A DNA stretch of 64,000 nucleotides, from assembly GCF_000516985.1 (NCBI RefSeq), contig NW_006917101.1, positions 1,356,834-1,420,833 of the forward strand, read 5' to 3'. This document shows, in pieces, positions 298 through 60,600 of this stretch. Below the pieces are notes generated by a model. It searched no databases, had not been told where the DNA came from, and saw only the letters and a program-made list of their open reading frames with translations. How positions within the stretch are numbered: position 1 is the first letter of the stretch; the number at the start of each line of letters is the position of its first letter. Source of the stretch: Pestalotiopsis fici W106-1. Its lineage: Eukaryota; Ascomycota; Sordariomycetes; Amphisphaeriales; Sporocadaceae. The position numbers and the translations under genes were made by a program.

Positions 298-2838
298 TTA
301 GTCTGCTTCTGCAAGCTGGATAATGAGCTTGGCTGCCATGTCTAAGAACGGGAAAGGACTCATGACGTCCTTTTCCTCGAGCATGGTCCCGTCAGGTCGC
401 TCGTAGCCGCTGCATTTGAAGTCAACTAGGTAGACCCCATATTCCATCTCGTAAATTTGAATCTCCATGTGCATATTGACAAAGTCCTGCTTGCGGTTGT
501 CAAGCACGGAAACAATATGGGCATTGTCATCGCCATCGGAGGGCATGTGCTTTTTCATATCTGTGGAATTTAGAATGTTGTTCAACAGAACGTCTCGCCT
601 GAATGACATACCTTGCTTAGTCCAACGACATACAATATGCCAAGGATCTGCCGGAAGCTTGTAGTATTTGGTAGGTTTGAACGTAGCTAGGTCGATGTCC
701 TCGGGCTTCATTCCTTCATATGGATTAGGTGCCTGTGCCCTTTTGGACCTCCTGAATAAATTAGCACCGTGTGATTAGGCAACATGAGAGGGATGGAACT
801 CACTGCTCATTTTCTGGACCATGGACCTCATCATAATCCTCGTTCACCACCCAAGTTGCGTTCAACTTGTGGAGTGCTTTGTAGATGCAGAGCAGCGCTT
901 CCCAGGGCGCATTTCTAGAGCGTATGCCGAATTGCCAACGCACAGGCTTATTCTTTTTCTGCACAACAGGAGTCATGGGAGCCGGGCGACTCTGACTATC
1001 ATCAAGTCTGACACTGCCTTTGGAGTGTGGCTTGAGTCGGCGGATTGCCTCCTGATGCTCAGCTGGGGTCCTTGGATGAGATGGAAGATCGGGAAGAGGC
1101 TGGTCCTCATGCGCCTCTTCATCACCGGCATTGTGGCGATCCAGGGCCTCCTTGTGCAAGGCTGGTAGACTAGTAGGTAGTATACCAATTTTACTGACAT
1201 ATCCACGTGGTGATGTGCTCGTAATAGTCGATGCATTCGACCGTGTCGAATCTGCAAGGGGACTGGCCGCAGAGTCAAATTCATTGTCTTTGAGGGATGC
1301 ATCTTGCATCGCTGAGTTCAGGCTGCCGGCATGTTCCTCGTGATTTGTAGTAGGCGGCGATGATGCGAAATATGGGTTGTCATTCCCAGTGCCATAGGCG
1401 GCTGTAGGCAATAATAATCTTAGCTTGAAGCCCAACCGTGTATAGTAAAAGCGCGAACATAGCAGCCAATGAATATATATGCGGAACTCTCGAGCACGTA
1501 TTCACGGGTAGAATAAGACGTCGCCACTATTTTCGGCAATTTCAAAACAAAAATAAAATCGCATCTCACAAACAAACTCCGCCTAGGATAACAATGGACT
1601 TGGCTTGACTTACGATTTACTTGCATAAGCTTGTTCTCGCGTACAATCATGTATGCGTCTTTAATCGCCGAGGGTTCGTCTGCACCGAGGGCTTCTTCAA
1701 CGTCTCGCTTGCCGTAGCCCATTGTCTTGCTGATCTTTTCAGTGACTTCATTGTGCAACTTCTCCTGGACCTTCTGAGGGGCATGCGGAGCAATATCACT
1801 TGGGTTGATGGCCTTGTTAGGGTCGACACCGGTGTTGAGGAATTCCTCAAGCGGGGGTGCTAGATACGACGGCAGCTCGTGTGCGAACCATGGATCTTGT
1901 CGAATCTCCTCAATGGTTGCTCTTGTCAGGGGGTTCACCACCAACATCTTTCTAATCATGTTGGCCGCTCCTACGGGACACCAGGACGGAATATTGAAAA
2001 CACCACGCTGGATCTTTGCGAAGAGACTGGGGATATGGTCATCATCGAATGGTAGCCGACCGATGAGCAGGACATAGAGGATGACACCGCAGCTCCAGAC
2101 ATCCACTTCCGGGCCTGCATACAGCTTTCCGCTGATGACTTCGGGGGCTGCATAGTTGGGGCTACCACAGCTTGTCTTGAGGAAGTTACCGTCTGTCATG
2201 ATGTTGCTGAGACCGAAATCGGCAATCTTAACGTTGAGGTTGTCATCCAGGAGTAGATTTTCAGGTTTCAAATCACGATGCACAACTTTGTGTCTGTGAC
2301 AATATTCAACAGCGCATATCATCTGTTGGAAGAATCGCCGGGCTTTGTCCTCTTGCATTCTCCCGTGGGAGACGATGTAGTCGAACAGCTCACCGCCTGC
2401 GTACTCGAGGACCATGATAATCTCAGCACTCGTCTTGATCACAGTGTAGAGCTTGATAATATGGGGATGTCTGAGCAACTGCAGATACTCGATCTCTCGT
2501 TCGACACGACCGACCATGTCTCGACTGATGAGCTTTTTGCGAGATATGATCTTGAGAGCAACTTGCTGCCCAGTGCTCCTGTGTACAGCGAGTTTGACCT
2601 TGCCAAAAGAACCCTCTCCAAGAGTGCGAATGATGTTGTACTGGCCGACACGCTGTTCCGTCCTTCCCTTCTCGCGATGGGTTGGGACGGCGGTGCTGGC
2701 ATGGTCGCTTGCTCGTTGTTTGCCATTGTTAGGATCGGATGTCGTCGGGGTGACGTTGATCTCGGGGACTCGACGTCGAATCTGTGAGGGCGACAGGGAG
2801 ATGGAGAGTTCCTCCTCGTCGTAGGGTCTGGTGGCCAT
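298..2838 (-). CDS. SNF1: SNF1/AMPK catalytic alpha subunit (Ser/Thr kinase)
   Basis: The catalytic subunit of the SNF1/AMPK complex phosphorylates targets on energy stress and relieves carbon catabolite repression. I read four exons: 1614-2838, 804-1401, 612-751 and 298-560. All junction phases agree and give 741 residues. The 51-nt last intron is itself a multiple of three and stop-free, so it looks like coding sequence if missed. Visible in the protein are the Gly loop GEGSFGKV (about 74-81), the ATP-binding Lys in VALK (96), HRDLKPEN (187-194), DFG (207-209) and the activation-loop Thr in LKTSCGSP (222), which matches the yeast site phosphorylated by upstream kinases. A UBA-like autoinhibitory region follows near 340-400, then a low-complexity linker. 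The C-terminal adenylate-sensor/beta-gamma-binding region (about 560-741) starts near VRWQFGIRSR. Conserved C-terminal sequence across three introns makes the exon calls firm. The start Met precedes a short acidic N-terminus with no upstream competitor noted. Confidence 0.96.
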
Positions 2839-4496
2839 GTCTGCTGAACAGTAAGCCAGGGCGGGCTGCGGCGTCGTAAACTGTACAAGCTGTCGCAGCG
2901 ACAGCCAGACGAAGCTTCTGAGCAGAGGTACGTATCAAGATTTGGATGTCGTGGGCGGTCTCTTCTTCGTCAAGGGAAGCTCCAGGTCCTGATGGAGCAA
3001 GCAGTCGGCGAGGGGCACGGCTGTTGCAGTGGACGGGCGACCAGGGCGGCTGATGGGTTAGGTAGGGGGGCAGGATTGGCTACAGTGAGTAAGATGTCGC
3101 CAGGCCTTTGGTACTGACCCCAGCAATAACGAACCCGCTGCCCGATGAATTGCTGCCCGCTTGTCTGGTCCAATCCACCCAGCACTCTCTCCGCAGTGTG
3201 TGGAGTGCAAAAAAGTTCGCTTGACTCGGGGCCTCGGGGCAGATTACCGAAATGGTAATCGAGGTTGAGCTACACTCCGTATCGCTGCAAAGAGAGCAGA
3301 TCACCAGATCCCAATACGGCGGAGCACCAAAAGGAGCTATAATGCTTTGCAGACTCAATGAAAAGGTCTGTGGAAAACTAATAGACGGACAGCACTGAGC
3401 ACTTCAGCTCGAGCTGCGTGGACGCCAAGGTACGTAATAGTCGCAGTCAATGTGGTTTTGGAGAAATTGGTGCCTTAGCTGAAAGTGTGATGGGATGTGG
3501 AGGGGCGCGAGATACCTAGATAACAGTAGTGGACAGCTTGATGACCGAGGTTCTAGGTTCGAGTGGTGAGCAGGAGCTTAATGTACTATTAGCTGGCAAT
3601 GGTCATGTAGCCACCGGAGGGTTGTATTACCACAAGCGCTGCCGAGCAAGCACTCACCTTGGCTACCTTGATGTACCTAGTGGACCAAAGTGAAGGTAAT
3701 TGGGACCTGCAATGGAACGCAACCAGTTCATGGGCTGCAAGGACGTTCTGTACTAAAAATTACACATCAGTGATCTCTAGACCAAAATACGCAACGATCT
3801 TGTACATAGTAGAAAGCAATTTGCAAATTGCTCATTAGCCGCCCTCCATCCTCATAATGGTGATATATCGCGAATACTGAATTCAATATTTGCACAGCGA
3901 GAAGGGGCAAGTATTGGAGTGCATCAGTTAATAAGCAGGTACATACTAATGTAGATACCTACTGTGAGCTGACGTGCTTTGTTCGCCCTGACTGACATAC
4001 CTGGCATCGCAAGCATTCGTGACTTCTGACTGAACACTGCGGTTATGGATATTATGCTCTTCTCTTCTCTAGCTGCCAGATGATGTAGGAACCTGCATGT
4101 TTGTGTACTTGAGAATAGATTTGCACGGCCAAATTGACACCGTGTCAGAAGCAAGTGAAACATGGATGCTCGTGTACGCAGATGGAGTATTACGAGACGC
4201 CACGAAATGGCAAATAAAATAATATGATACAATTGCCAAGTATTCCGTATAGACTGCACGAGTGCCTCGTGGCACCAATAAATATCACTAAACTGACCTT
4301 TGCCAACAGAACAGCCTTCTGCCGCGTCACAAAACATCATCCTATAGAAGATGTCTGCCATCTTGAAAACGTGATCCGCAGCGAGCGATGGTATTAGGCA
4401 ATTTACACACGGTAAGTAAATTCTTCGGAATATACAGGTGCAATATTACAAAGCACTGGCCGCAGGTAGCCTTCTCTAGTCGATATGCCAACCTAC
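2839..4496. other. Intergenic: SNF1 promoter/5' UTR and 3' flank of the next gene
   Basis: These 1.66 kb separate the SNF1 start codon from the stop codon of the gene at 4497-5493. Several open frames of 69-145 codons occur (for example minus strand 3924-4361), but none resembles a known domain or has convincing codon use. I expect the SNF1 promoter and an upstream leader here. I see no specific operator. Confidence 0.5.
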
Positions 4497-5493: not shown

Positions 5494-5939
5494 TGCGGGA
5501 GCTGGTAGTAGTGACGACTGGGAAGCTCAAAAGCTGAAGCTGTCGCGCTGGAAGCTCTATCTTATCACTAAAAAGTCTCGAAGCGTGCCCTGACGTCGAT
5601 GAAGTGCCCCACTGGCTACATCGATATTTACAGTGGCATGTGTCGGTACAAGACGCTGCAAGGATCGGGGCTACAGCATCCAGGTAGCTGCTGACAAGGA
5701 TCCTGGCCCCAAAAAGGCCCTGTTGTGGTGGGGGATTTTCTAGCCAATTTACGCGCTGCATGTAAGAGTCGCGTCTTTTGCAACGCGTAATATTATTATT
5801 TCAAGTAAACTGTCAAAAGGTGACTTGCAACTCAGCAGTCACAGCATCACCAAAGCATTACTGCTTCGGATCCTAAACAATTGGCACTTGATGCTGTAGT
5901 TGAGGATAAAGGTCAAATAAACCAAAAATCGTCAACAAA
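5494..5939. promoter_or_regulatory. Shared divergent promoter between the mitochondrial-like gene and DPB2
   Basis: These 446 bp separate two divergent start codons (5493 minus, 5940 plus) and must hold both core promoters. The ACGCGN cluster described separately lies inside it. Confidence 0.7.
5751..5788. promoter_or_regulatory. Cluster of MCB-like (ACGCGN) motifs upstream of DPB2
   Basis: Three ACGCGN motifs lie within 38 bp: ACGCGC at 5751-5756, TCGCGT (reverse ACGCGA) at 5769-5774 and a perfect MluI cell-cycle box ACGCGT at 5783-5788. The last is about 150 bp before the DPB2 start. MBF in yeasts binds ACGCGT to drive G1/S transcription of replication genes, including DNA polymerase subunits. 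The location fits, but binding here is inference. Confidence 0.6.
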
Positions 5940-8318
5940 ATGCAGCCGCGAAAACCTCAGGCAGCGCCAATCTTCGCTGCAAGAACACCAAATCCCAAGG
6001 CCTCAAATCCGATACCCTCGTCGTCACCCGCATTTGCGACTCCCCAGGCAACATTAAAGCCTTTCTCCGCCGCACCCGCCAAGGCGACAATTCTACCCAT
6101 TCTTCTCCCTCCCGCGACTCTGAGACCGCTGGCTTTCAGGACTTTTACCAAGAAACATAGTCTTACATTGACGTCGTCCGCATTACAAGAACTAGCGACT
6201 TTCATAGGACGGCACTGCGGTTCAGGATGGCGCGAGGAGGGGCTGGCAGAGAAGGTGCTTGAAGAGGTAGCAAGATCCTGGAAGAACCGTAATGGCGGCG
6301 TCATCGTTGATGGCACCAGCAAGGAGCTCAAGGATATCCTAAAGACACTCGAGGGTAACATGAGCGGAGGCAGAATTACAACAGGCGGCGACCTGGCCCG
6401 GAAAAACAGTCTGACGATCGAGGCCCTCGATGAGGCCGACTTGTCCAACACAAGACTTGGCATACGCCCTGCCACCCTCGCACGGGATGACAGCAATCGA
6501 AGCTTTGGCATAAGCGCACTGGAGATGGAGCAGAACGAGAACGAGGATGAGGACGGACTGAACGACCCAAGAGACTGGACCAAGGTTATCAACGCATACG
6601 ATCAGCCTCGAATGGTTTACAATGTGTCCAAGAAGCACTTTGAGAGGGATCCAACAAAACCTTCATTAATGCCCTCGGCTTCCCACAAAACGGCTCTTTT
6701 CAGAAACAGATATAATGTTATTCACCAAAGACTCCTACGGAACGAATCCTTTCAGACTTCAGCCGTCGCAACGGCAAAGGCGGGTCCGCCCTCTTTGAAA
6801 CGCGCATCCTCATCTGTAGTCACAGCACAGCAAACATACAAGATCACACCAATCGCAAATCTTCTAGGTCGCCATGGTAGCCACCATATGCTGCTTGGGC
6901 TCTTGTCGGTATCCCCTACGGGCACGCTAACCATCAGCGACCTAACCGGAACAATATCTCTTGACCTTTCACAAGCACAATCCGTGCCTGAGGATTCTGC
7001 ATGGTTTACACCAGGGATGATTGTCCTAGTAGACGGCATCTACGAGGAAGAAGAAGAATCGATTGGTAAAGGCCTGGGTGCGAGCAATGGCATTGGTGGC
7101 ATCATTGGCGGCAGGTTTCAAGGATTCTTCATAGGCCAACCACCTTGTGAAAAGCGAAAAGTGACACTAGGTGTAAGTGGACCAGAAGGCGGCCTGGATC
7201 ATACAATCGGCGGTGGCTTTGGGTGGATCGATTTCCTCGGCGTGGGCAGTGAACGCGCAGTTGGTTCAAAAATGCGAAAGGTCCAACAACGGATTCTGCG
7301 ACACATATCGGAAGATCATGATTCCCCAAGTCGTGATCGGGTCGTCATTTTGGGCGAACTCAATCTTGACCAACCGCGTGCTTTGCAAGCGCTCCACAAG
7401 ATCTTGACGATATATGCATCGGAACCCGAGGGCACATCTCCCATGGCATTTGTCCTAACTGGAAACTTTACTCAACACGCTGTAATGGCCGGCGGCGGGA
7501 GCAGTGGCGGTAGTGTGGAATACAAGGAATATTTCGATTCCTTGGCGTCCGTACTATCGGACTTTCCTACTCTTCTACAAACGGCCAATTTCGTCTTCGT
7601 CCCGGGGGATAATGATGGCTGGGCTTCTTCATTCTCTGCGGGAGCTGCTGTGCCATTGCCGCGCAAGTCTGTTCCCGACATGTTCACTTCGCGCATTCGC
7701 AGGGCCTTTGTTGCGGCAAACGCGGAGGCAGGAGTCAAGAAAGGGGGAGAAGCCGTGTGGACTTCCAACCCAGCGAGGCTCACGGTCTTCGGGCCATCCC
7801 ACGAGCTTGTCATCTTCCGAGATGATATGTCTGCGCGTCTTCGTCGAACAGCGGTGCGCCTCAAGTCGTCCAAATCCAACTTTGAAGACCAGGAAAATGT
7901 AGCACCACCACAAGAGACAGCCGAAGATGTTGATATGACAAGTACACTGCAAGACCAGGAAACCGCCGTTGAGGCTATGGACATTGATGCAGCGCCCCAA
8001 TCTGCGAGGCCCGAGATAGCACACGACGTGCAAGCAGCACGGAAATTGGTCAAAACGCTTTTGGATCAAGGATATCTCACGCCATTCCGGCAGCAGATCC
8101 GGCCAGTGCATTGGGATTATGCATCTGCCCTTCACCTTTATCCATTACCCACGGCCATGATATTGGTGGATGCAACGGCACCACCGTTTTGTGTCACATA
8201 TGAAGGGTGTCATGTCATGAATCCAGGGACAGTACTTGTGGCTGGGCGTAGAGGCGTCGGACGATGGATCGAATATGAGCTCGGGGGCAAGGGAAAGGTC
8301 AGGGAATGTTTGTTCTAA
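5940..8318 (+). CDS. DPB2: DNA polymerase epsilon subunit B
   Basis: This intronless frame of 792 residues encodes the second-largest, essential non-catalytic subunit of the leading-strand replicase Pol epsilon, which links Pol2 to the CMG helicase. The N-terminal part has a helical region followed by a long linker. A conserved block WTKVINAYDQPRMVYNVSKK (about 213-232) and RNRYNVIHQRLLRNESF precede the OB-fold segment (about 300-380, near LLGRHGSHHMLLGLLS). The C-terminal half is the calcineurin-like phosphoesterase fold typical of B subunits, with VVILGELNLD, FVLTGNF and FVFVPGDND. The metal-binding residues of active phosphoesterases are degenerate, as expected for this inactive family. 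The start is the first ATG after the divergent promoter, in an AAAATG context. Length agrees with fungal orthologues. MCB-like sites upstream suggest G1/S regulation. Confidence 0.93.
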   Translation: MQPRKPQAAPIFAARTPNPKASNPIPSSSPAFATPQATLKPFSAAPAKATILPILLPPATLRPLAFRTFTKKHSLTLTSSALQELATFIGRHCGSGWREEGLAEKVLEEVARSWKNRNGGVIVDGTSKELKDILKTLEGNMSGGRITTGGDLARKNSLTIEALDEADLSNTRLGIRPATLARDDSNRSFGISALEMEQNENEDEDGLNDPRDWTKVINAYDQPRMVYNVSKKHFERDPTKPSLMPSASHKTALFRNRYNVIHQRLLRNESFQTSAVATAKAGPPSLKRASSSVVTAQQTYKITPIANLLGRHGSHHMLLGLLSVSPTGTLTISDLTGTISLDLSQAQSVPEDSAWFTPGMIVLVDGIYEEEEESIGKGLGASNGIGGIIGGRFQGFFIGQPPCEKRKVTLGVSGPEGGLDHTIGGGFGWIDFLGVGSERAVGSKMRKVQQRILRHISEDHDSPSRDRVVILGELNLDQPRALQALHKILTIYASEPEGTSPMAFVLTGNFTQHAVMAGGGSSGGSVEYKEYFDSLASVLSDFPTLLQTANFVFVPGDNDGWASSFSAGAAVPLPRKSVPDMFTSRIRRAFVAANAEAGVKKGGEAVWTSNPARLTVFGPSHELVIFRDDMSARLRRTAVRLKSSKSNFEDQENVAPPQETAEDVDMTSTLQDQETAVEAMDIDAAPQSARPEIAHDVQAARKLVKTLLDQGYLTPFRQQIRPVHWDYASALHLYPLPTAMILVDATAPPFCVTYEGCHVMNPGTVLVAGRRGVGRWIEYELGGKGKVRECLF

Positions 8319-9953: not shown

Positions 9954-12346
9954 ATGGGTTTGCTGTACGTCGCCAGCCATATGCGCTCCCCCCGACCCAC
10001 GAGCCTCAAGGTGACACAGATTTGCTAACACTGCGTGTATAGTGCGCTCGGCACGGCTCTGGATTGGCCAGACGCCAAAACACATGCGCATCAGGTCAGG
10101 GAATGGGGTATCAAGGTATGCGGCTGCAGCGTCATGATGTTCGCCAAATCGGATGAAGCTGATAATTAGGACAGCAATTGCTTGAGATCTGGAATAAGGC
10201 CAAGCACAAGGAGCGAGATGCCATGCTCTGGGGTGACGAGGTAAGAATAGACTGTGTGTTCGCCTGCTATTGTAGATTGTTCTCACATCCCTTCAGGTCG
10301 AATACCTGGTTGTGACATACGAAAAGGATGATCCAAAAGTCCTTCTCTCGCTCCGTCAAGCAGATATTTTGAAGGCATTGGCCGCCGACGAGGAACTGGC
10401 AGCAAAGGGTGGTGGTGTGCCAGCCATTCAAGACCAGAAACAACAGTAAGCTAACAACTGTTGGTCTCCATCGCATTGACGTCCCTGCTAAGTTTGACAA
10501 GGTCGAATCCTCTCCCGGTCTTCCACCCTGAGTTTGGTAGATTCATGCTCGAGGCCACACCGGGCAAGCCCTGGGGAATAGGATTCAAGGAACTGCTGGA
10601 CGTGGAGCCGGATATGAAGCTCAGGTATATATTATACCGCTTTTGTCCATTTGAGATTCCCTGCTGACCCCTTTTAGGAGGAGAATTGCAAAGGACCATA
10701 TGAAGTCTAACGAGTACCCAATCACGCTCACCACGTTCCCCCGGTTGGGTGTCCCGGGCGTGTTTACAGAGCCTCACTATCCCCCCTCAGGATCAAAGCT
10801 GCGTTCGCAATTTGTTCCGGATGAAATTGCCAATCCCCACATTCGATTCCCGACTTTGGCCGCCAATATCCGTTGGAGGCGAGGCAAAAAGGTTCAGGTA
10901 AATGTGCCAGTGTTCCATGACAAGAACACGTCAAACCCCTGGAAAGACCCAACCGTCAATTATGATTTGCACAACTGGCCAGAAGACGACGATGTTCGGA
11001 ATGGTGCCAGTCCAGACAACTTTATTCACATGGATGCTATGGCGTTCGGTATGGGAAGTTGCTGCTTGCAAATAACCTTCCAAGCCAAGAACATCACCGA
11101 AGGCCGGAAAATGTATGATCAGTTGAGCCCTCTTGGCCCAATCATGTTGGCTCTAACGGCTGCGACGCCTATATACAAGGGCTTTCTCGCCGACACTGAT
11201 GTCCGCTGGAATCAAATCAGTCGAGCCGTTGACGACCGCACAGAGGAGGAACTTGGAGAAAAGGTGTGTACACGTGTTTGCGACATGTTTGATCCAGATG
11301 ACTAACATAAGACGGTGTAGCCCCTGAAAGACAGTAGATGGAGGATACCAAAGTCGCGCTATGCGTCAAACTCGACGTATATCTCGACAGACAGTCGACT
11401 GAGACCAGAGTACATGGACCCCAATCTTGTCATCGACCACGATATCAAGCAACAACTCATGGATGGAGGCATGGATGATCGCCTGGCAACCCACTTTGCT
11501 CATCTCTTCATTCGTGATCCAATCGTTATTTTCAATGAGGACCTCAAGGAGTTGGATATGACCAAGGCCGATCACTTTGAGAACATTCAGTCCACCAACT
11601 GGCAACATATGCGTTTCAAGCCCCCACCGGCAGGCAGCGATATTGGCTGGCGTGTCGAGTTTAGACCGATGGAGATACAGATTACCGATTTCGAGAACGC
11701 AGCCTTTGCCGTTTTCATGGTCCTCATTACGCGGGCCATTCTCTCCTTTGATCTAAACTTTTATATCCCCATTGCCAAAGTCGATGAGGGCATGGAGACA
11801 GCTCACGCACGGGATGCCGTGCTAGAAAAGAAGTTCTATTTCCGCAAGAATCCCTTTCCTACCCGGCCGACGCGGAGCGCCATGGGCTCGGGGACGAGCA
11901 CGCCCATGATCAGCCGGCCGCCGACGCCTACGGGTCCCGTCGAGGACGAGTACGCCTTGATGACCATCAATGAGGTGATCAACGGCTCCACCTCGGACGA
12001 GCACGACTTCCCCGGTCTGATCCCCATTGTCGAGAGCTATCTGGACTCGGTCAACGTGGACGTGCAGACGCGGTGCGAGCTCGACACGTACTTGAACCTC
12101 ATCCGCCGGCGTGCCAGTGGCGAACTCTGGACGGCGGCGAAATGGATTCGGGACTTTGTGGACAAGCATCCTGCCTACAAGCACGACAGTGTCGTTGATG
12201 ATGAGATCAACAAGAGCCTCATTGAAGCTGTCATTGACATTAGTGACAGGGAGCAGGTCGGCAGAGGGTGGGATGGGCTAGATGTTCCTAATCTGGACCG
12301 ACTGCTGAACGGTTTCAGGGGAGGTTGTGGCGGTTCCAAGCGGTAG
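9954..12346 (+). CDS. GSH1: Glutamate--cysteine ligase (gamma-glutamylcysteine synthetase)
   Basis: This enzyme catalyses ATP-dependent ligation of L-glutamate and L-cysteine, the first and rate-limiting step of glutathione synthesis, in the cytosol. Seven exons (9954-9964, 10043-10115, 10175-10240, 10297-10445, 10502-10624, 10678-11263, 11321-12346) join in phase to 677 residues, the usual size for the eukaryotic GCL family (GCS, family 3). The start MGLLALGTALDWPDAK is characteristic. Family signatures include WGDEVEYLVV (about 46-55), PVFHPEFGRFMLEATPGKPW (about 105-124, substrate pocket), FGMGSCCLQITFQ (about 264-276) and WRVEFRPMEIQITDFENAAF in the C-terminal third. The first coding exon is only 11 nt long and ends two bases into the Leu codon. 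The small exons at the 5' end contrast with the large last exon. A low-complexity Thr/Pro/Ser stretch near 490-520 is a species-variable insert. Confidence 0.96.
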
Positions 12347-44741: not shown

Positions 44742-47700
44742 TCAAGTGTCGTGATGATCTTGGCGCTCATCGTTGGGCCGTGTGATCAAAATGGGCGAGA
44801 TATGCGAACGATGTATGACAGTCGTGCCATTTCCGTGGTCACCAGGGCGATGATCAACACCGGTGAGGTTCTGATTCTGAAATCCGTCATTGCTCGCATC
44901 AGTCATTGCGTACATGGGGGAACGGTGCCTCACGGGGATACGGTTTTCTGACCCAGTACCCCCATCTGCAGACGATTGATTCTCTTCTTCGAGTACTGCC
45001 TGACCCACGAAGCAGTCTCGCTCCACAAATGGGGTACCTGGCCTGCTTGAGTGATTTCGAACATGTCCAGTCGGAGTACATGCCTCGCGAGGTGGTAAAC
45101 CTGATGCTTCCCACTCCACTGAAGAAGCCTCACTGTTCTTGCTGCGCATACTTCTCTTGCTGGCTTTGCGTACCAGATCCGTCATCATGACACTACCGCG
45201 GTAGATATCATCAAGGACTTCCTGGCTTCTGTGTCCGAGCTCTTCGCGAGCGATCTCAAGAGCACGACGATTGAGATGTGAATGCGCACCCTGATCTACC
45301 AAGCGATTTGCCTTGCGAATCTCGGTCCAGCGTGTCAGTGCTCCGAGTTCCAGAATGTTGACACGGCGATGCTTTTCTAGAGGGTTACCAATGATCAATG
45401 GCCTCTAACCAATGTCGAATTCGGGAATACTGCTGAGGTCTCTCCGGCCAGCAGCTTTTGCATCGGCAATCACCGTTGCCCGTCTGCGAAATGTCTCATT
45501 TCGTTCAGCAATCCACCTGTCCATCTCCAGGGTCTTTGACCTCGGGATGATTTCAACTTGTTTGAATCTCGTAAGGACGCAAAGAAGAAGGAATGTAAGT
45601 GCGAGCAGAATGGAGGCAACAACAGCAGTTGCAGTCCGTTGGCCCAGATTTCGTTGCGCCATGCCGCCAACCACTGTTGCTACCGCCGCAAGGATGAAAC
45701 CTAGACTATGGATGACAGCAAATCCTGCTTGAACCCGAGGAAATGAAGAGTAGTTGATCCTCTTACCGGAATCTTTCTTGTTCCTGTAGTGGCCGGTAGT
45801 TCCCGGTTGCAAATCAGAGCAATCCCAAGTCTCCATGAGTATACCATTGCATTCTGCGATTGCGAGGCATGAAAGAAACCCCACCATGGCGGTAAACAGA
45901 CACGGGAAGGCGACATGCACAGGAGGACCAAAGGAGAGAACTGTATACATGACGCCTGCAAATGGTAGCGTAATCGTGAAAATGGCACGGCGAACCAAAT
46001 GAGACGTCCACGTCACCTTGCGATCGATTGTTGAGGCGTTGGATTTCGAGGGCTGGTATCTGGCGCGCGAGAACAGATTGGCTTTCTGGAAGGGAACAGC
46101 TGCAAGTGCGCCGATGGAGATGGACGAAACAGCAGTGCCTACAAACGTAGATCTGAAACGGTAGTATCTCGACGTAAGTGAACCAAGAAGCTAGCCGTGA
46201 TTAGTGGGATGTGCGAGCATAAGGGCAAATCATCTGTACTCACCACAATCATCAGAATGACTTGGGCATAGATCCAAGCACAATACAATGCCATGATGGC
46301 GAATCCAGGTTGGCGAAGCATCTCTAAACAGAGAAGCACGCCATGCCAAACTTCTTGGCCCCACCATTTTGGCCCATCCTTCACTCGATGCATCATGACT
46401 TCACCCCTTGCGACTCGTCTGGAGATTCGATTACCAGTTCGGACCTCGGCCAAAGATCGTCGCCAGGCGGAGCGGCGAACCTCTGGAATCAAGACCGCCA
46501 GTAACAGGGCAACGGCAACCAGTATGATACTGACGTAAAAGCCCCAGGCAGGAGACGCTCGATCAATCACAGCCGCACCAACCAAGAAGCCGACACCAAG
46601 TGACCCAATGAAGCACCAGGTCCAAATACCGAGCCAAACACCAAGACCACCCCCATGTCTCCTCACATCGTCATGATCGGCCAGTTCTTGATGCGGGTTG
46701 CTACACATCAGTGAGGCACCGAACAGATCGGTCAGTGTCGCTTGAAAATTCATGTTCGCAAACCCCAAAGAGACACCCATTAAGCCTCGGGGTAGAAGCA
46801 GTGCCCAATTCCAGACGCTGGTCTGTGACGAGCGATGCATACTCACCGTTATTGCTTGCGGGAAAAGGAGTGGCATTGCCAAAGTTAGACCAAACAGTAT
46901 GTACTGTCGGCGTCCGTGAAGTAGCGGAAGTGGCCAGCAGAAGAATGTTGGCAAGGCCATACCAAGATACATGCCCACGTTACCGAGAATGGCAATGTGA
47001 TTGTCGTCGGCAATGTAATACTGGACAGCAGGAACAATACCGGCATAGATGCCGATGAGCAACCCGATGACGGCCGTTCCAAAGCAAGAGACCATTGCGA
47101 CAAACCTCTTCCTCGCTAGTGACTAGTCGCGGGCGATTGGCTGTCGACGATGTGACTTCGTCAAACTGAAATTGGCATTTTGAATACTAATATGAGACCG
47201 TCCATTAAGGCTAATATTGTGCAAGGTCTCTGAGCGTTTTGACTTGGATGAGATGCGAGCTTCTGCGGGAACTTTTGTAACGCCGTGAGTTTTCAAGTGT
47301 CTGGCGAAACCGTTACGTTTCCTCGGTGCTGAGCTTTCTTGGACGTGTTGAGTTGGAGGCGAGAAATCGGCAATGTCGTCAGACCCACCATCTAAGCTAT
47401 ACATCTCCGTTGACCTTCGTCTGGCAGCTATATCATCCCGAACAGCGCAAGTGGTTGCTATAACTTGCGGGAAAGTGTGGTTCTGTATACCTTGTGACCC
47501 CACACGCGGTGTGATGGGCGGCGAGTGGAAGATGCGTATGTATTCCCGGACTTCACGACTGTTTGGCACCGCCCCTTTTCGATGGCGAGTGATTGTTCCT
47601 GAATCATCCTCATCGTATGCAAGCCTAGAGGAATTTTTGCAATCCCTTTTCAAGTCTCGGTCGGGCGGTGGGAGAGGTAACGATGGGTCTTCGCAGGACG

Positions 47701-49213
47701 TTTTGTTTTGTCGTGTCAGACTTGATGGTTTTGATGAGAGTACAGGGCCTCGAACGTTGCCGCTGTGTGCATACAGCCTTGAAGGAATATCGTCAGCTGA
47801 TGAGTGCTGGGGAAGGCTTTCATGAACACTCGAGGCCTGAGAGTCCTCTGCAATGGGTGATTCGGGGATAGGAGGCTCGAGAAAACTATCATCAAGATGC
47901 GCATGGTCGTGCTCAGCTACTTCGTTGGCGAGTTCAAGTGCCTCGCTTAGAAGACGCTCGAGGTTCTCCATGGCCTGTTCCATGGCGTCTGCATCTGCAG
48001 CATTTTGATCAGAGAATGTAGTCACTCTGCTCATTGGCGAACCTCTGCCATGATATGGATAATCATGATGAGACTGTTGAAGAGGATGGTGTTTCTTTGG
48101 AGATTGGGTTAGCGCCGTGCTGGATCTTCTCGACTTGAGGAGATCACGAATCCATTCTGTGGTGCGTTTTGGATCCCAGGCCTGAGGGTGCGATCGATGC
48201 TCAGAATCCTCTAATAGTTGGGTTGTCAGCGATCGTGTGAGGCTTTCGTGAGTCCTACTGCGCTGTGGTAGATTCACACTGTTGGTTGGGTGTGGCTCCT
48301 GCATATCAACAGAGTCTAGTTGAGCGCCGGGCTCGACAAAGGAGACTGACGAAGCCTGATGCAACTTTCCCCTTTGTGGACTATCTTTCGGGGTTTCCGT
48401 GACTCCAGGCAGGAATCCCTAATATGAAGTAGCTTGAGATTGTCCCACCTCTGCCTGTGAGTCATCCTCTGTGATCTCGGAAAATGCAAGATGAGGAATC
48501 GATTGCAGTCTCTTGCTAACCACCGGTCTCGATGACGCATTGTGGAAAGACTGAACCTTCCCAACCCAGCTATGACCGCCATGGGCATCCCCGTGGCCGA
48601 GAATTGAATCGTCCGATGAGAGAATAGTCTCGTCAGACAATGCACGAACTTTTGATTCATACTGAGGGCGCCCATAACGACTAGGTCTCGTGTCAAAGGA
48701 AGGCATTATTGAGCGAACACTGGGTGTGCCTAGGGAGTTCTCTTGTTCAACGATATCCGCGGGACGGACCTTGGAGGCCCCCTTGTATCCGTTTTGGTTC
48801 TCAGAAAGGGTATTGTGGTGGTTTTTATTGATGTTTGGCACTTCAGGAGGCTCCATGGCGGCCGGTCGGACTTTGGATGCACCGTAGTAGCCTTGATCAG
48901 CATCAATATCTGCAGCACGAACTTTTGATGCCCTATGGTGCTCAATGTGATCATCCTTCTTCAAGGCCATTGGAGTAATTGTATCTGTCGAGTTCATTCG
49001 AGTGAGGATAGGCGGTACAGGCATATCAGAGGAGTCCAAGCGAGCTTTCCCACCTTCCAGCAAAGAGTGTCTAACAGATCCGGTTCGGGCCCTGTCAGAG
49101 TGGTATGATGGCGTGCGATTGCTGACAACTCTAAGGGAAGGGTTGGACTCTCTTGAGTAGAGGCTCGGCCGCGAGGAAGAGAAGACCTCTTGTGCCAGAT
49201 CTGATTGCTGCAT
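44742..49213 (-). CDS. Large MFS-type transporter with in-frame TAG codons, probable A-to-I editing substrate
   Basis: A long cytosolic N-terminal region (Ser/Pro/His-rich, repeated GASKVRPA-type motifs) precedes 12 hydrophobic segments. TM1 starts near ARKRFVAMVSCFGTAVIGLL, and TM12 is near ATAVVASILLALTFLLL. A cytosolic tail follows, with TRWTEIRKANRLV. It resembles a fungal MFS family usually called polyamine/multidrug transporter-like; the substrate is unknown. One clear intron is 46191-46243 (donor GTGAGT). The exons 46244-49213 and 44742-46190 share phase and give 1,472 residues if three TAG codons (48419, 47123, 45405) are read as an amino acid. A weak 93-nt intron at 48356-48448 would remove the first TAG and give 1,441 residues. 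No TAA, TGA or frameshift is present, so simple decay is unlikely. Ordinary genes here end in TAG, so the code is not changed. It may correspond to Fusarium AMD1, an MFS-domain gene needed for ascus maturation whose TAG is edited to TGG, but I could not align them. Confidence 0.8.
45396..45414 (-). other. Predicted RNA hairpin holding the third in-frame TAG in its loop
   Basis: In the transcript this reads CAUUGG, loop UUAGAGG, CCAUUG. The arms pair at five of six positions with one U-U mismatch, and the UAG (45405-45407) lies in the 7-nt loop. The codon follows FDIG and precedes RPLIIGNPLEKHRRVN, just after TM12 in the cytosolic tail. A-to-I sites in Fusarium are reported as enriched in UAG context and hairpin loops. 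Folding was done by eye. Confidence 0.55.
47123..47125 (-). other. Second in-frame TAG, immediately before TM1 of the MFS gene
   Basis: The codon sits between PIARD and SLARKRFVAMV, with coding sequence continuing in the same frame on both sides. In relatives as I recall them the motif is PIARDW-S-x-ARKRFVA, so TAG stands at a Trp position. No phase-0 donor of normal quality lies close enough upstream to splice it out. CGC at 47129-47131 and GCG at 47114-47116 (transcript sense) can pair to place the UAG in a 12-nt loop. Confidence 0.75.
48419..48421 (-). other. First in-frame TAG, N-terminal region of the MFS gene
   Basis: The codon follows QSQATSY and is followed in the same frame by GFLPGVTETPKDSPQRGK, which looks like ordinary coding sequence. 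An alternative is a 93-nt intron (48356-48448) with donor GTGGGA and acceptor CATCAG. That donor is poor and I see no CTNAC-like branch site. Of the three TAGs this is the one most open to a splicing explanation. Confidence 0.5.
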
Positions 49214-56217: not shown

Positions 56218-57635
56218 TTACAGCAGCAGAGTACCGACCAGGGTAAACATACCCACAACACCAGTCACAGCAAAGAAGCTGAGGTCCATGGGCGGTGCCG
56301 GACGACCACCGTCGCTCTTACCCGATGAGGTGGCAGACACGGAGCCGGAACCGGCCTCTGCAGTACCTGTCGACGTAGAACCAGCGTTTTGCGATCCATC
56401 GCCAGACAGGCCGGGACCATCACCAGCACCGTTGGTCATGTACTAGGGCAATCAGTTAGCAAACCAGTTCGAAGGACATCTGTTATGCTTTGGAGGTTTT
56501 CACTTACGTCCTTGGCCTCGTCAGGAATAGCGGGGAGCGCATCCGAATCAACCTGCCAGTCATCGTCGGTAGATGGGCAAGTGGCGGCAGAGGTGCTTGA
56601 CACGGCACCACCGCTACCAGTAGGAGCAGGGTACTTGGACAGAGCAGACTTGAGGTTATCGTACTCGTCCGTCTCGGTCACGTCGCTGTCGTCGCCATTA
56701 AGTTCGACAATACCGTAGCCGTTACCCTCCTTGCTGTACTCGTAGACAAGACCACCAGAGTAGACGGCCGTCATGTCATCACTCATGAGAGAACCAAGCT
56801 CCTCGAATGAACGGGGAGGGTTGGCGATACAACCCCACTCGGACAGGAAGATGGGAAGACCGTAATCAGTGAAGTTCTTAACCTTCTGATCCCAGCCAGA
56901 TGTTGTAAAGCTCGAGGGAGAGCACCACGAGTAGTCGTTGAATGCGAAGAAGTCGCTGCGGGCGTCGTCAGAGCCGCAGTTGAAGTAGTCGGCAGTCTGG
57001 GCACGGTTTGACGAGACATCGGCAGCAGAGTATCCGACAGGAATGGCACGAAGACCGCGAGAGCCAAGGTACTGCTTGATGTCTCGGGTTGTGGCCTTGA
57101 CGTATGGGGCGGCAAGGGTTGAGTTGGCCTGCTCGTTGATAACCTCGTTTCCGGAGAAGAAAGCCAGAGTGTTGTCGTACTTGGCAAACTCCTCGACGGT
57201 GGCGAAGACGCTCTGAAGGTAGACGGCGTTGTATGAGGCGGCGGGTTCATAACGGTTGATCGAGTACTTGGGGTTGTTGACATCGAGAACAAGGTAGATG
57301 CCAGCATCGGACAGCTCTTGCATACACTCGTCGTGGCTCTGGGAGTTGTCGATCATGTAGACACGGATGGTGTTGACACCAAGATCCTTGAACTTGGCAA
57401 TATCACGCTTGCAAGTGGTAGTATCAGCGAGAGGATCCGAGTTTCCAGAGGAACCACCGGGCTGGTAGTCAATTCCTCGCATGTAGAAACGATCACTGCC
57501 AGTCCAAAAAGCCTTGCCCGACGCAGTGACAGTAGGAAGAGAGTCGGCGCGCTTTGGAAGCTCCTTCTCGGTGCGTGTGGGTGTGGCGCTGACGATGCTG
57601 GCAGCTGCCAGAGTAAGAAGAGCGAACGACTTCAT
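56218..57635 (-). CDS. gel1: 1,3-beta-glucanosyltransferase, GH72, GPI-anchored (Gel1/Gas type)
   Basis: This cell-wall enzyme cleaves beta-1,3-glucan internally and transfers the new reducing end to another chain, elongating glucan at the outer face of the plasma membrane. Two exons (56508-57635, 56218-56442) join in phase 0 to 450 residues, close to Aspergillus Gel1. A signal peptide covers about residues 1-17. The GH72 domain runs from about 32 to 340, with catalytic Glu 164 in SGNEVIN (acid/base) and Glu 265 in FLSEWGC (nucleophile). Typical motifs are FYMRGIDYQPGG and NTIRVYMID. The C-terminal exon is Ser/Gly/Thr-rich and ends in a hydrophobic segment (MDLSFFAVTGVVGMF onward), the GPI-attachment signal. 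No X8/CBM43 cysteine-rich module is present, which places it in the Gel1-like subgroup. The intron separates the catalytic part from the GPI-signal exon. Confidence 0.95.
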
Positions 57636-60600
57636 TGTGAATAGATTCGAAAGCCTCTCGAATGCGTAGAAAGTTTAATTGGTTCGAGGTTTCAATTGGT
57701 ACCACAAGACGTAGGAGATACGATATGTGCGAAGCTCGAGTATCGACAACGAATGGATGGTAGTGGCAATTAAAAGGCGTCTTGATTCTATGATGAAATG
57801 AAGAAGGAAAAAAAGGCAACAAAGCGAGAGAGTTGCCGTGTGAGAAATCACCAAAAGTGAAGAAAGTGATTGTATGGTGGAGAGAGCGAGATCAATGAGA
57901 AGAAAGAGAAAGAGTGTCGAGAAGTTGAGAACCCGAATATTTTAGGTTTTCTAGAAAGAAAGGCCAGGAGCGATGCACTCGGGACAAGTGCCAAGAGCAA
58001 GCAAGCATGAATTTTGGCACAGTTCAATGTCTACACACCCCCCATCATCACCTCCGTCCCCTCTCTGGATCGCCTGATTGGCAGCAATGGTGTGTGTGCT
58101 AAAAGTATGAGGTAGGTACCGTATGCAACCAAACTTGGATCTCCATGGGTTTAGTGGAGTGTAAAAGATGGTGGTGACCGTAATGACGGAGGGGTGTGTC
58201 CACCATTCAAGCCTATTGCTAAGGTTATTCCTTAGCTGCCAAGCACAGAGCTGGATTCAAGATTGGGCGTGCGGATACGAAACACTGGAGCAAAAAGCCA
58301 GACCTGAGCGCGTCGTTCTGTGATATGCCAACTCCGGCCGTGTCAATCGACTTTGGACAAATCTCCCCTTGCATATAAACATCGGGTCATTCCCAAAGGA
58401 ACGATCAAAAATAATTTGGTAGTATTATAAGAGGTCAAGCAAGGCTATTGTGGGCCGACTGTGAGGGACTGGAAATGAATTTGCAACAGTATCAGGTCAT
58501 GACACACACAGTTGGCCATGCCATTGCCGTGGGCGCGGCTCACAGTACGAACATGGTCATCATTTACCCCATTGCTGGGATTGTGCCTAGTGGAGGGTAG
58601 CAGGGGGGTGGCCCCGGGGGAAGCGAGCGATTCTCCCGCATCCTGTTCCCAAGCGCCAAGGCAAAAATATGCGTGCTTGGGCTTGCTTGGGTGGGCGCTA
58701 TGGCGGCAGGGTGCGGATATCAGGCAAGGAGGAAACTTGGAATTTTTTCTAGCATTTCTAGCAGACAACCATCGCGCCCATGGTGGGCTGCTGATCCAGC
58801 CACTAAATCTCTGCTATGCACAATTCAGGGATGAGGCGAGCAAACGACTGGAAATCATCATCTCCCCTTCATCTAATCAAGGCCGGGAAGACGTCCCAGC
58901 TCTTCTTGGCTTACAACACTGCCTCAGTCTACCTGTTTCAACTCGTATACCACACACACTACTACTGAGCTCCGCAAGGCGTGTGTCTATGTGTGGGATT
59001 CTTCGGAATCTTGGAAACGAACACTTTTTGTTTACTCCGCTATGCAAAACATGTTGTCAGGTTCCAGACGAGGGGGATGAGTGGTGCCAGAGATCAATGA
59101 GATGTGGGCTTTTGTCGCTTGTCGTGGTCCCATGTGATTCGAACAGACTACGTACTACTGGTCTACGATAATGCCAATGCAAGATGCGCGCGGGTATGTA
59201 ATGTAGTGTAGTGTAATGTGTTGTAGACATTTTTTTTGCACTGCCTCCTTGACTGCCAAATAACCAACCACTGCACTCACACATACATGCCTACCAACAG
59301 CGTCATTAACCGGCCGAGCAACTTTCATTCTCTCACAGTGTTTCAATATAACATTCCTGCCGATCTTCCCATTGACTCGTGCCGAGTTCGTCTCAAGAAA
59401 AGATTGGAAACAACCAGCCGTCCTTCCGAATCAGCTGGCCATGTCCGTGATGAAGTCATAATGGATACCGGAGGACCCAACTTCCCCATCGGCAAAACTG
59501 CTGCCAAGCAACCGAAGCAGAGCCCTGGTCAAGCTTGCACGGCTTCCAAATCCCCAGTGCTTCCCCTGGGCGGGTGTGCAAGATGCAGTCAATGCACTCC
59601 AGCATGCCCTTTTCTTTGATTGAGACTTGTCGCCGCCATCTCCGATGCTGACTGACCTCATCAGTATTCGTTTCTTACAGGCAACGTTGATTTCTTGAAA
59701 ATTGTTTTCATGCAAATGTTCAATGTTGTGGTGCTGAAAACTCCATTCATTTACACCAGGGTAACGCCCAGAACATTCCAACCGGCCCTGAGGGGAGAGG
59801 GTTGGAGGGGCTTCTGGCCCAGGCCTAGACCAGCAATATTCAATGGATTTCCCCTGGATTCACTGCTAAAATTGCCCGAGCCTCTCCCCGCTGTCAGGGC
59901 CTAGTGTGCCCTTTTTGGGCGCGCTAAAGTGGAAGCGAAATTCAATCCCGGTCGATCTCGGCGCGGATCTGAGCTGTTGGGAAGCGTTGGAATCGTTGAA
60001 GAAAACACGCCTGCAAGATCTGATCCTCCAAATGAATCATCCCGTCCAAAGTCCCACTACGCTTCTGACCCTTGGAAGTTGGAACCGATGCCGTATTGAG
60101 AAACAACACGCCGCATATCAACATGTATGTTTTCCAGGTGAAGTGCGGCTCTTCAGAAGCACTCCTTGAAAAAGTACGCAAAGGAGCTGCTGCACTTTGA
60201 TTAGCTAGTCGCTGATCGTCATGTGGCCTGGCACAACCTCCAGTCACGTCTCGCATTTAGTAATCTTTCGACTTGGACGATCCCCAGATCGTTTGGTGCT
60301 GATCCAGATATGTACCACGGAAGCACTCTCAAAAATAACCGGTATGGAAATAACACGGCAGCCGAACCTTACTTGCTCAGAGGATACATCCTGCGTTTAT
60401 TTTTATGCAATGTAGGTAGAAGTGCATCTTCAATGTGTTTCAGCGGCGGACATAAACATAATAAGTCTGGCGTGCATGGGATATAGCAATCAGATGTACG
60501 TGGAAACCTTTGGCGTCATCTTTATTCTACTCTATTTGGGTATCAAACAATACTCGGATGAAATGAAGCGTCAATCGCAAATCACTTCGAACTCTATCAA

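Follow-up and report, generated by a model that had tools for sequence, protein, structure and literature searches.

The gene examined here lies on the minus strand of a 64-kb stretch of the genome of Pestalotiopsis fici W106-1, termed the window throughout, and is in all likelihood an orthologue of AMD1 of Fusarium graminearum that depends on adenosine-to-inosine (A-to-I) editing of its mRNA at three separate sites, a reading drawn from genomic and protein sequences. The spliced frame, reconstructed from the DNA of the window (49213-46244 joined to 46190-44742), comprises 1,472 codons and closes with a TGA at 44744-44742. Three in-frame stops precede this end, all of them TAG, at codons 265, 697 and 1252, with their A's at 48420, 47124 and 45406, such that 432 codons separate the first candidate from the second and 555 the second from the third. 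No frameshift or further stop was found in the 1,472 codons; read in its other two frames, the spliced sequence contains 50 and 68 stops. An earlier note on this DNA had described a frame of about 1,470 codons with a single intron and three stops, all TAG, and its positions proved exact; the intron measures 53 nt, and relatives such as P0123 run continuously across the exon junction (MIVLLGSL). The note was also right in pointing to the Sordariomycetes, but the organism is P. fici and not Fusarium; the host is placed by NCBI in the Sordariomycetes, Xylariomycetidae, Amphisphaeriales and Sporocadaceae.

The position of the stops carries most of the argument. A search with X in place of each TAG, as the earlier note had suggested, found 714 relatives, and the set used here consists of 230 proteins, namely the best 120 of these and the best 120 of 387 obtained with the piece between TAG 2 and TAG 3 as query; the searches gave relatives of limited length only, which affects the protein ends that are visible. 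Of the 157 relatives that have a residue at site 2 (codon 697), 156 have tryptophan and one has a Y, at a gap edge (6 further relatives have gaps and 67 start later). Site 3 (codon 1252) aligns with tryptophan in 178 of 185, with 31 proteins ending before it and 14 gaps, and site 1 (codon 265) in 44 of 87, with 39 gaps and 104 later starts. The bearers of tryptophan at site 1 belong to the Xylariomycetidae (43 of 44) or to Diplogelasinospora (one), and most of them have in common the motif YWGFLP. Judged from these alignments, a change of UAG to UGG restores the family tryptophan at all three stops. One-step changes that would turn a sense codon of this frame into a stop number 492, of which 20 are TGG to TAG; once the three real ones are added, three stops placed at random would all be of this kind with a probability of 9e-5, or of 6e-3 among transitions only. 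Since each of the three stops stands at a tryptophan position of the relatives, the mRNA is very probably rewritten to yield the full protein. The earlier note had seen family-like sequence on both sides of the second and third stops; this was borne out, and the SY-W-GFLP motif of the Xylariomycetidae extends it to the first.

The sequence beyond each stop is conserved. Compared with the near relative P0122, the membrane-domain piece is 93% identical and the tail 80%, and the part between TAG 1 and TAG 2 is 72% identical to P0232, with 6 gap positions in 399. In a tree of columns 698-1240 the end branch of P. fici has a length of 0.037 and that of its sister 0.038. The indices of repeat-induced point mutation (RIP) are 0.478 for TpA/ApT and 1.37 for (CpA+TpG)/(ApC+GpT), where the cut-offs are about 0.89 and 1.03, respectively, and by neither index was a RIP signature found in the gene. 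By the measure of protein identity in each piece and of branch length, the gene is not decaying, and selection was kept past the stops.

The assignment to the MFS family, made in the earlier note, is likewise upheld. The third piece of the frame, downstream of a long N-terminal part, matches MFS_1 (E 4.9e-9), and many of the relatives are named as MFS or polyamine transport proteins. For the T. angustata orthologue, structure prediction (mean pLDDT 69, pTM 0.73) gave an MFS fold, and a Foldseek search with the model returned SV2A, YajR and VMAT2 as first matches, at 11-13% identity; in this model the site-2 tryptophan lies just ahead of the first membrane helix and that of site 3 in the part past the last long helix of the domain. 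Searches of PDB sequences with P0121 and of NCBIfam with P0121 and P0002 gave no match. When the F. pseudograminearum protein P0100 was compared with the whole P. fici genome (51.7 Mb in 20 contigs as searched; 52 Mb in 118 scaffolds as published, PMC4320822), the AMD1-like gene was its sole match, in two pieces, and thus no close paralogue was seen. P0100 is taken for the orthologue of F. graminearum AMD1 by species, size and domain. The public P. fici protein PFICI_13403 (P0121) is identical to the window gene over 755 of 755 residues (544/544 and 211/211); it begins at the first Met past TAG 2 and omits 11 residues over TAG 3, so that the model covers just 755 of the 1,472 residues.

AMD1 of F. 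graminearum (FGRRES_10094) is described as an MFS protein of 1,386 residues located in the ascus membrane. Its single UAG, at nt 631-633, is edited in 97.6% of perithecial transcripts; editing is required for its function, deletion stops ascospore discharge, and orthologues are reported there from ascocarp-forming ascomycetes only (PMC5496914). The window gene is of similar size and likewise has a long N-terminal part ahead of the MFS domain, a premature UAG in an otherwise open frame and a false intron from automated annotation. The earlier note had named AMD1 as an edited MFS gene, correctly, but a single such stop is reported for it (codon 211), and its editing has been demonstrated, whereas the window gene would need editing at three, on the strength of its alignments. 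An equation of codon 211 with site 1 was considered, as a WxFxP motif occurs at W183 of P0100, but, measured from the MFS domain, the motif does not fall on codon 211, and the equation was not used.

Other corrected stops offer further parallels. In PUK1 and other genes with premature-stop correction, UAG is restored to UGG as proposed here, the set of sites varies among species and G is already genomic in some (PMC4817773, PMC11156358); PUK1 has two tandem sites, in contrast to three sites far apart in a gene of another family. The premature stop of CHE1 of Fusarium is kept among related species, like the stops of the AMD1-like genes, and its annotation failed in the same three ways as in the AMD1-like relatives, namely by a model that ends too early, a start placed downstream and a phantom intron (PMC11169179; see also PMC4817773), yet CHE1 is a zinc-finger protein edited in hyphae. 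The OLD-ZAO antiviral module of Neurospora crassa also has a premature UAG that is fixed by A-to-I editing when the product is needed, but it is virus-induced and involves a different deaminase and gene family (PMC12754623).

Stops at two of the same codons recur among the relatives, as judged from protein records, in which the type of stop codon is not readable. P0232 ends in PIARD, exactly one residue ahead of the site-2 tryptophan, and starts at the Met that also starts the window's own open frame past TAG 1; P0232 and P0122 are probably neighbouring pieces of one gene. At site 3, 31 relatives end exactly one residue ahead of the tryptophan, with a final Gly in 31 of 31, and all carry the names of genera which we take to belong to the Xylariales. 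With P0121 excluded from the counts of protein ends and gaps (n=229), no other protein end falls within residues 700-1287, the other 11 ends up to residue 1306 lying at residue 1288 or beyond, and the models of 12 further relatives skip site 3 with gaps of varied size and then resume in the conserved tail. The earlier proposal of an A-to-I substrate with UAG changed to UGG thus gains from three sides: the tryptophans of relatives, the conserved sequence past the stops and the relatives' stops at two of the same codons.

The tree comprises 69 rows chosen by hand (the window gene, 64 relatives from or placed near the Xylariomycetidae and 4 outgroups), and its columns leave the stop sites outside the alignment used. 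One clade (SH-aLRT 94) contains 43 rows bearing a stop at site 3, 6 with tryptophan and 1 unclear, and the site-3 stop of P. fici lies apart from this clade; at least seven changes of state are required at the site, with two unclear rows uncounted. As P0122 and P0123 have tryptophan at site 3, the third TAG of P. fici looks recent. Five of the six tryptophan rows sit within groups of stop-bearing rows, a pattern suggestive of reversions, and for these the tail would have had to stay useful under the stop. Species whose protein ends at site 3 would have no need of editing if they had lost the tail.

The gaps in the relatives' models add to this picture. A gene finder that took the AG of a TAG for a splice acceptor would be expected to produce a gap ending exactly at a Trp column. 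Among 127 gaps of at least 6 residues, 85 resume in the variable linker 1233-1250 and were set aside, and 18 of the other 42 end on a Trp column. Four of these 18 stand at W801/803 (three Colletotrichum proteins and P0144), where the loop is variable, and may be real deletions. In Xylariomycetidae models 14 of 30 gaps outside the linker (26 proteins) end on Trp columns, divided among W1112 (4), W1252 (4), W697 (3), W866 (2) and W917 (1); a Trp column lies within 27 of the 30 gaps and in 3 there is none. Trp columns make up 18 of 601, which gives a nominal p of 4e-14 for the gap ends with shared ancestry ignored. On balance, we lean towards a history in which tryptophan codons of AMD1 in the Xylariomycetidae (697, 866, 1112 and 1252, with 265 as well in P. 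fici) switch back and forth between TGG and TAG lineage by lineage, the flips outside P. fici being deduced from protein records. The stop at 1252 would then have arisen early in one Xylariales clade, reverted several times and been read as a normal end in 31 records, P. fici would need three edits per transcript, and its conserved gene with so many stops would betray a working sexual cycle with editing in this endophyte.

Single records illustrate the gaps. In P0004, P0036, P0064 and P0093 the gap ends exactly at the family tryptophan at residue 1112, and in P0040 and P0162 at that of residue 866, in each case as if a TAG stood there. The Colletotrichum proteins P0059, P0098 and P0105 have a 12-residue gap ending at the Trp column of residue 801, in the variable loop, which is either a real deletion or a further stop at a tryptophan.

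Under the proposed mechanism, hyphae, or any unedited mRNA, would yield at most a 264-residue N-terminal peptide. During sexual development, in asci, the Tad2-Tad3 deaminase with its activator Ame1, known as the editing machinery (PMC11087585), would deaminate the A of all three UAGs to inosine; read as G, inosine would cause UAG to be decoded as tryptophan, and the full MFS protein of 1,472 residues would reach the ascus membrane. Editing itself, its timing in the sexual stage, the enzyme and the role in the ascus are what we infer. Known editing preferences are U at -1, C or U at -2, A or G at +1, +3 and +4, and G at +2, and hairpin loops hold more than 62% of edited sites (PMC9600606). Site 1 has 6 of 6 preferred neighbours, as does no other of the 1,067 A's of the coding sequence, and lies in a predicted hairpin loop.

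Several observations weigh against such editing. The context of site 2 reaches 4 of 6 and that of site 3 5 of 6, both in a predicted stem and not a hairpin loop, and such scores are common when the TAG triplets of all frames of the gene, 33 in number, are considered; the editing context therefore speaks for site 1 and, at sites 2 and 3, is neutral to slightly adverse. The tryptophan of site 1 is not kept outside the Xylariomycetidae, bar one Sordariales row, and other orders have different residues in this region, where the alignment is unsure. All three UAGs would need editing on one transcript. Ame1, Tad2 and Tad3 are without firm identification in the P. fici genome, which contains five deaminase-family matches, none assigned to Tad2 or Tad3, and three loci of DUF726, the family of Ame1, none matched to Ame1 itself. 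The copy on C6 is a candidate Ame1, but it was not used as proof, as no correspondence between its residues and the published MV500-501 could be established. Searches of the P. fici genome for kinase, DNA methylase and SPO22 families did not reveal a second edited gene. For PUK1, 133 kinase matches were obtained, and in the 12 with TAG-only inner stops, to which the inspection by eye was confined, every TAG falls either on a match boundary or where an intron is likely to end; the 7 DNA methylase matches, none assigned to RID, and the 1 SPO22 match have no stop inside.

An origin of the stops other than editing must account for the same facts. The gene might be a recent pseudogene, in a fungus that no longer needs spore discharge, decaying perhaps through RIP. 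Changes of TGG to TAG are of the RIP type and make up 20 of the 77 RIP-type ways in which a codon of this frame can become a stop. Heavy RIP of repeats is reported in the P. fici genome, and the genome paper does not use the word "sexual" (PMC4320822). Such decay is nevertheless very improbable, given RIP indices without a signature in the gene, 57 Gln codons of which none has turned to a stop, 1,472 codons free of frameshifts and other stops, an end branch no longer than the sister's, and a site-2 stop in common with P0232, whose sequence upstream of it is 72% identical. Sequencing or assembly errors are scarcely credible: the published draft was assembled from 454 and Illumina data at 24.5-fold depth (PMC4320822), but three separate G-to-A errors, all giving TAG at Trp codons and none elsewhere in the frame, would be an improbable outcome, and a relative's piece ends at the same site-2 codon and other species end at site 3.

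The stops may also be real and bypassed in another way, by ribosomal read-through, a suppressor tRNA or splicing out of the TAGs, or site 3 may simply be where the protein terminates in the Xylariales. Such sites are indeed spliced over in public models of P. fici and its relatives, and FgBUD14 of F. graminearum undergoes both editing and splicing of its stop-holding intron (PMC11156358). Splicing in the AMD1-like gene would remove conserved residues along with the tryptophan, and models in which site 3 is skipped still contain the conserved tail. UAG is the final codon of the glutamate-cysteine ligase gene of the window (12344-12346) and is thus a working stop in P. fici, which speaks against bypass. 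The context of a leaky stop is CUA, from which the triplets directly 3' of TAG 1, 2 and 3 (GGA, TCA and AGG) differ, and three read-through events in series would leave very little product. Read-through and splicing moreover leave the location of every stop on a tryptophan unexplained, and bypass of this kind is very improbable; editing of all three UAGs remains the preferred reading.

A-to-I mRNA editing has been called a common feature of the Sordariomycetes (PMC11087585), and edited premature stops and AMD1 are already known. The literature searched contained no editing report for the Amphisphaeriales or Xylariales, with supplementary lists of edited genes outside the search, so that a gene of this kind may already be listed; a paper on A-to-I editing that does name the Xylariales draws on them for orthologues of transcription factors only. 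The new points, as far as searched, are the occurrence of three dispersed stops within a single gene, such stops in the Amphisphaeriales and a stop common through a Xylariales clade. If correct, premature-stop correction would extend to the Amphisphaeriales and Xylariales, a single gene could hold three dispersed edited stops, and edited stops would come and go at fixed codons, which bears on the choice between an adaptive role and a neutral ratchet. Furthermore, 31 of the 230 relatives would be truncated in databases at an edited codon, and a conserved stop-bearing AMD1 could be used as a genomic marker of a hidden sexual cycle. With the AMD1 value of 97.6% per site, three independent sites would give 93% full-length mRNA, and at the genome average of 14.8% only 0.3%; efficient editing would thus be essential. 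Some of the 494 pseudogenes counted in the P. fici genome paper (PMC4320822) may be edited genes of this kind.

Features of the AMD1-like gene, other genes of the window and DUF726 genes of the P. fici genome. Positions are those of the window, except for the DUF726 genes (C1, C4, C6).
Feature	Position	Strand	Evidence or remark
Exon 1, AMD1-like gene, codons 1-990, with TAG 1 and TAG 2	46244..49213	-	frame reconstruction; aligned relatives
Sole intron, 53 nt, GTGAGT...CTAATCACGGCTAG	46191..46243	-	GTGAGT donor, CTAAT branch-like motif, TAG acceptor
Exon 2, AMD1-like gene, with TAG 3 and terminal TGA	44742..46190	-	frame reconstruction
TAG 1, codon 265, in SY-*-GFLP	48419..48421	-	Trp in Xylariomycetidae
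TAG 2, codon 697, in PIARD-*-S	47123..47125	-	directly before first membrane helix
TAG 3, codon 1252, in IG-*-RPLIIGNP	45405..45407	-	past last membrane helix
Pfam MFS_1 (PF07690) match	46250..47086	-	E 4.9e-9, residues 13-291 of piece 47122-46139
DUF726 gene L016	C1:1685226-1686281		GYSLG
DUF726 gene L017	C4:861440-862483		GYSLG
DUF726 gene L018	C6:3066274-3067335		GYGAG, divergent
Protein kinase with UBA_2 domain	1420-2934	-	
DNA polymerase alpha/epsilon subunit B	5910-8318	+	
Glutamate-cysteine ligase	11321-12346	+	TAG end
Open frame, 599 codons	51611-53410	+	coding-like; no Pfam match
GH72 glucanosyltransferase	56439-57674	-	cell-wall glucan

A codon-usage scan of the window singled out the AMD1-like gene as the sole case in which one stop splits two coding-like open stretches of at least 60 codons in the same frame; this concerned stop 1 only, and the scan is weak, both membrane-domain pieces having scored below 0. 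Scans of the window for tRNA and Rfam matches found nothing. The coding-like open frame of 599 codons adjoins the AMD1-like gene, and the GH72 gene lies about 7 kb from it.

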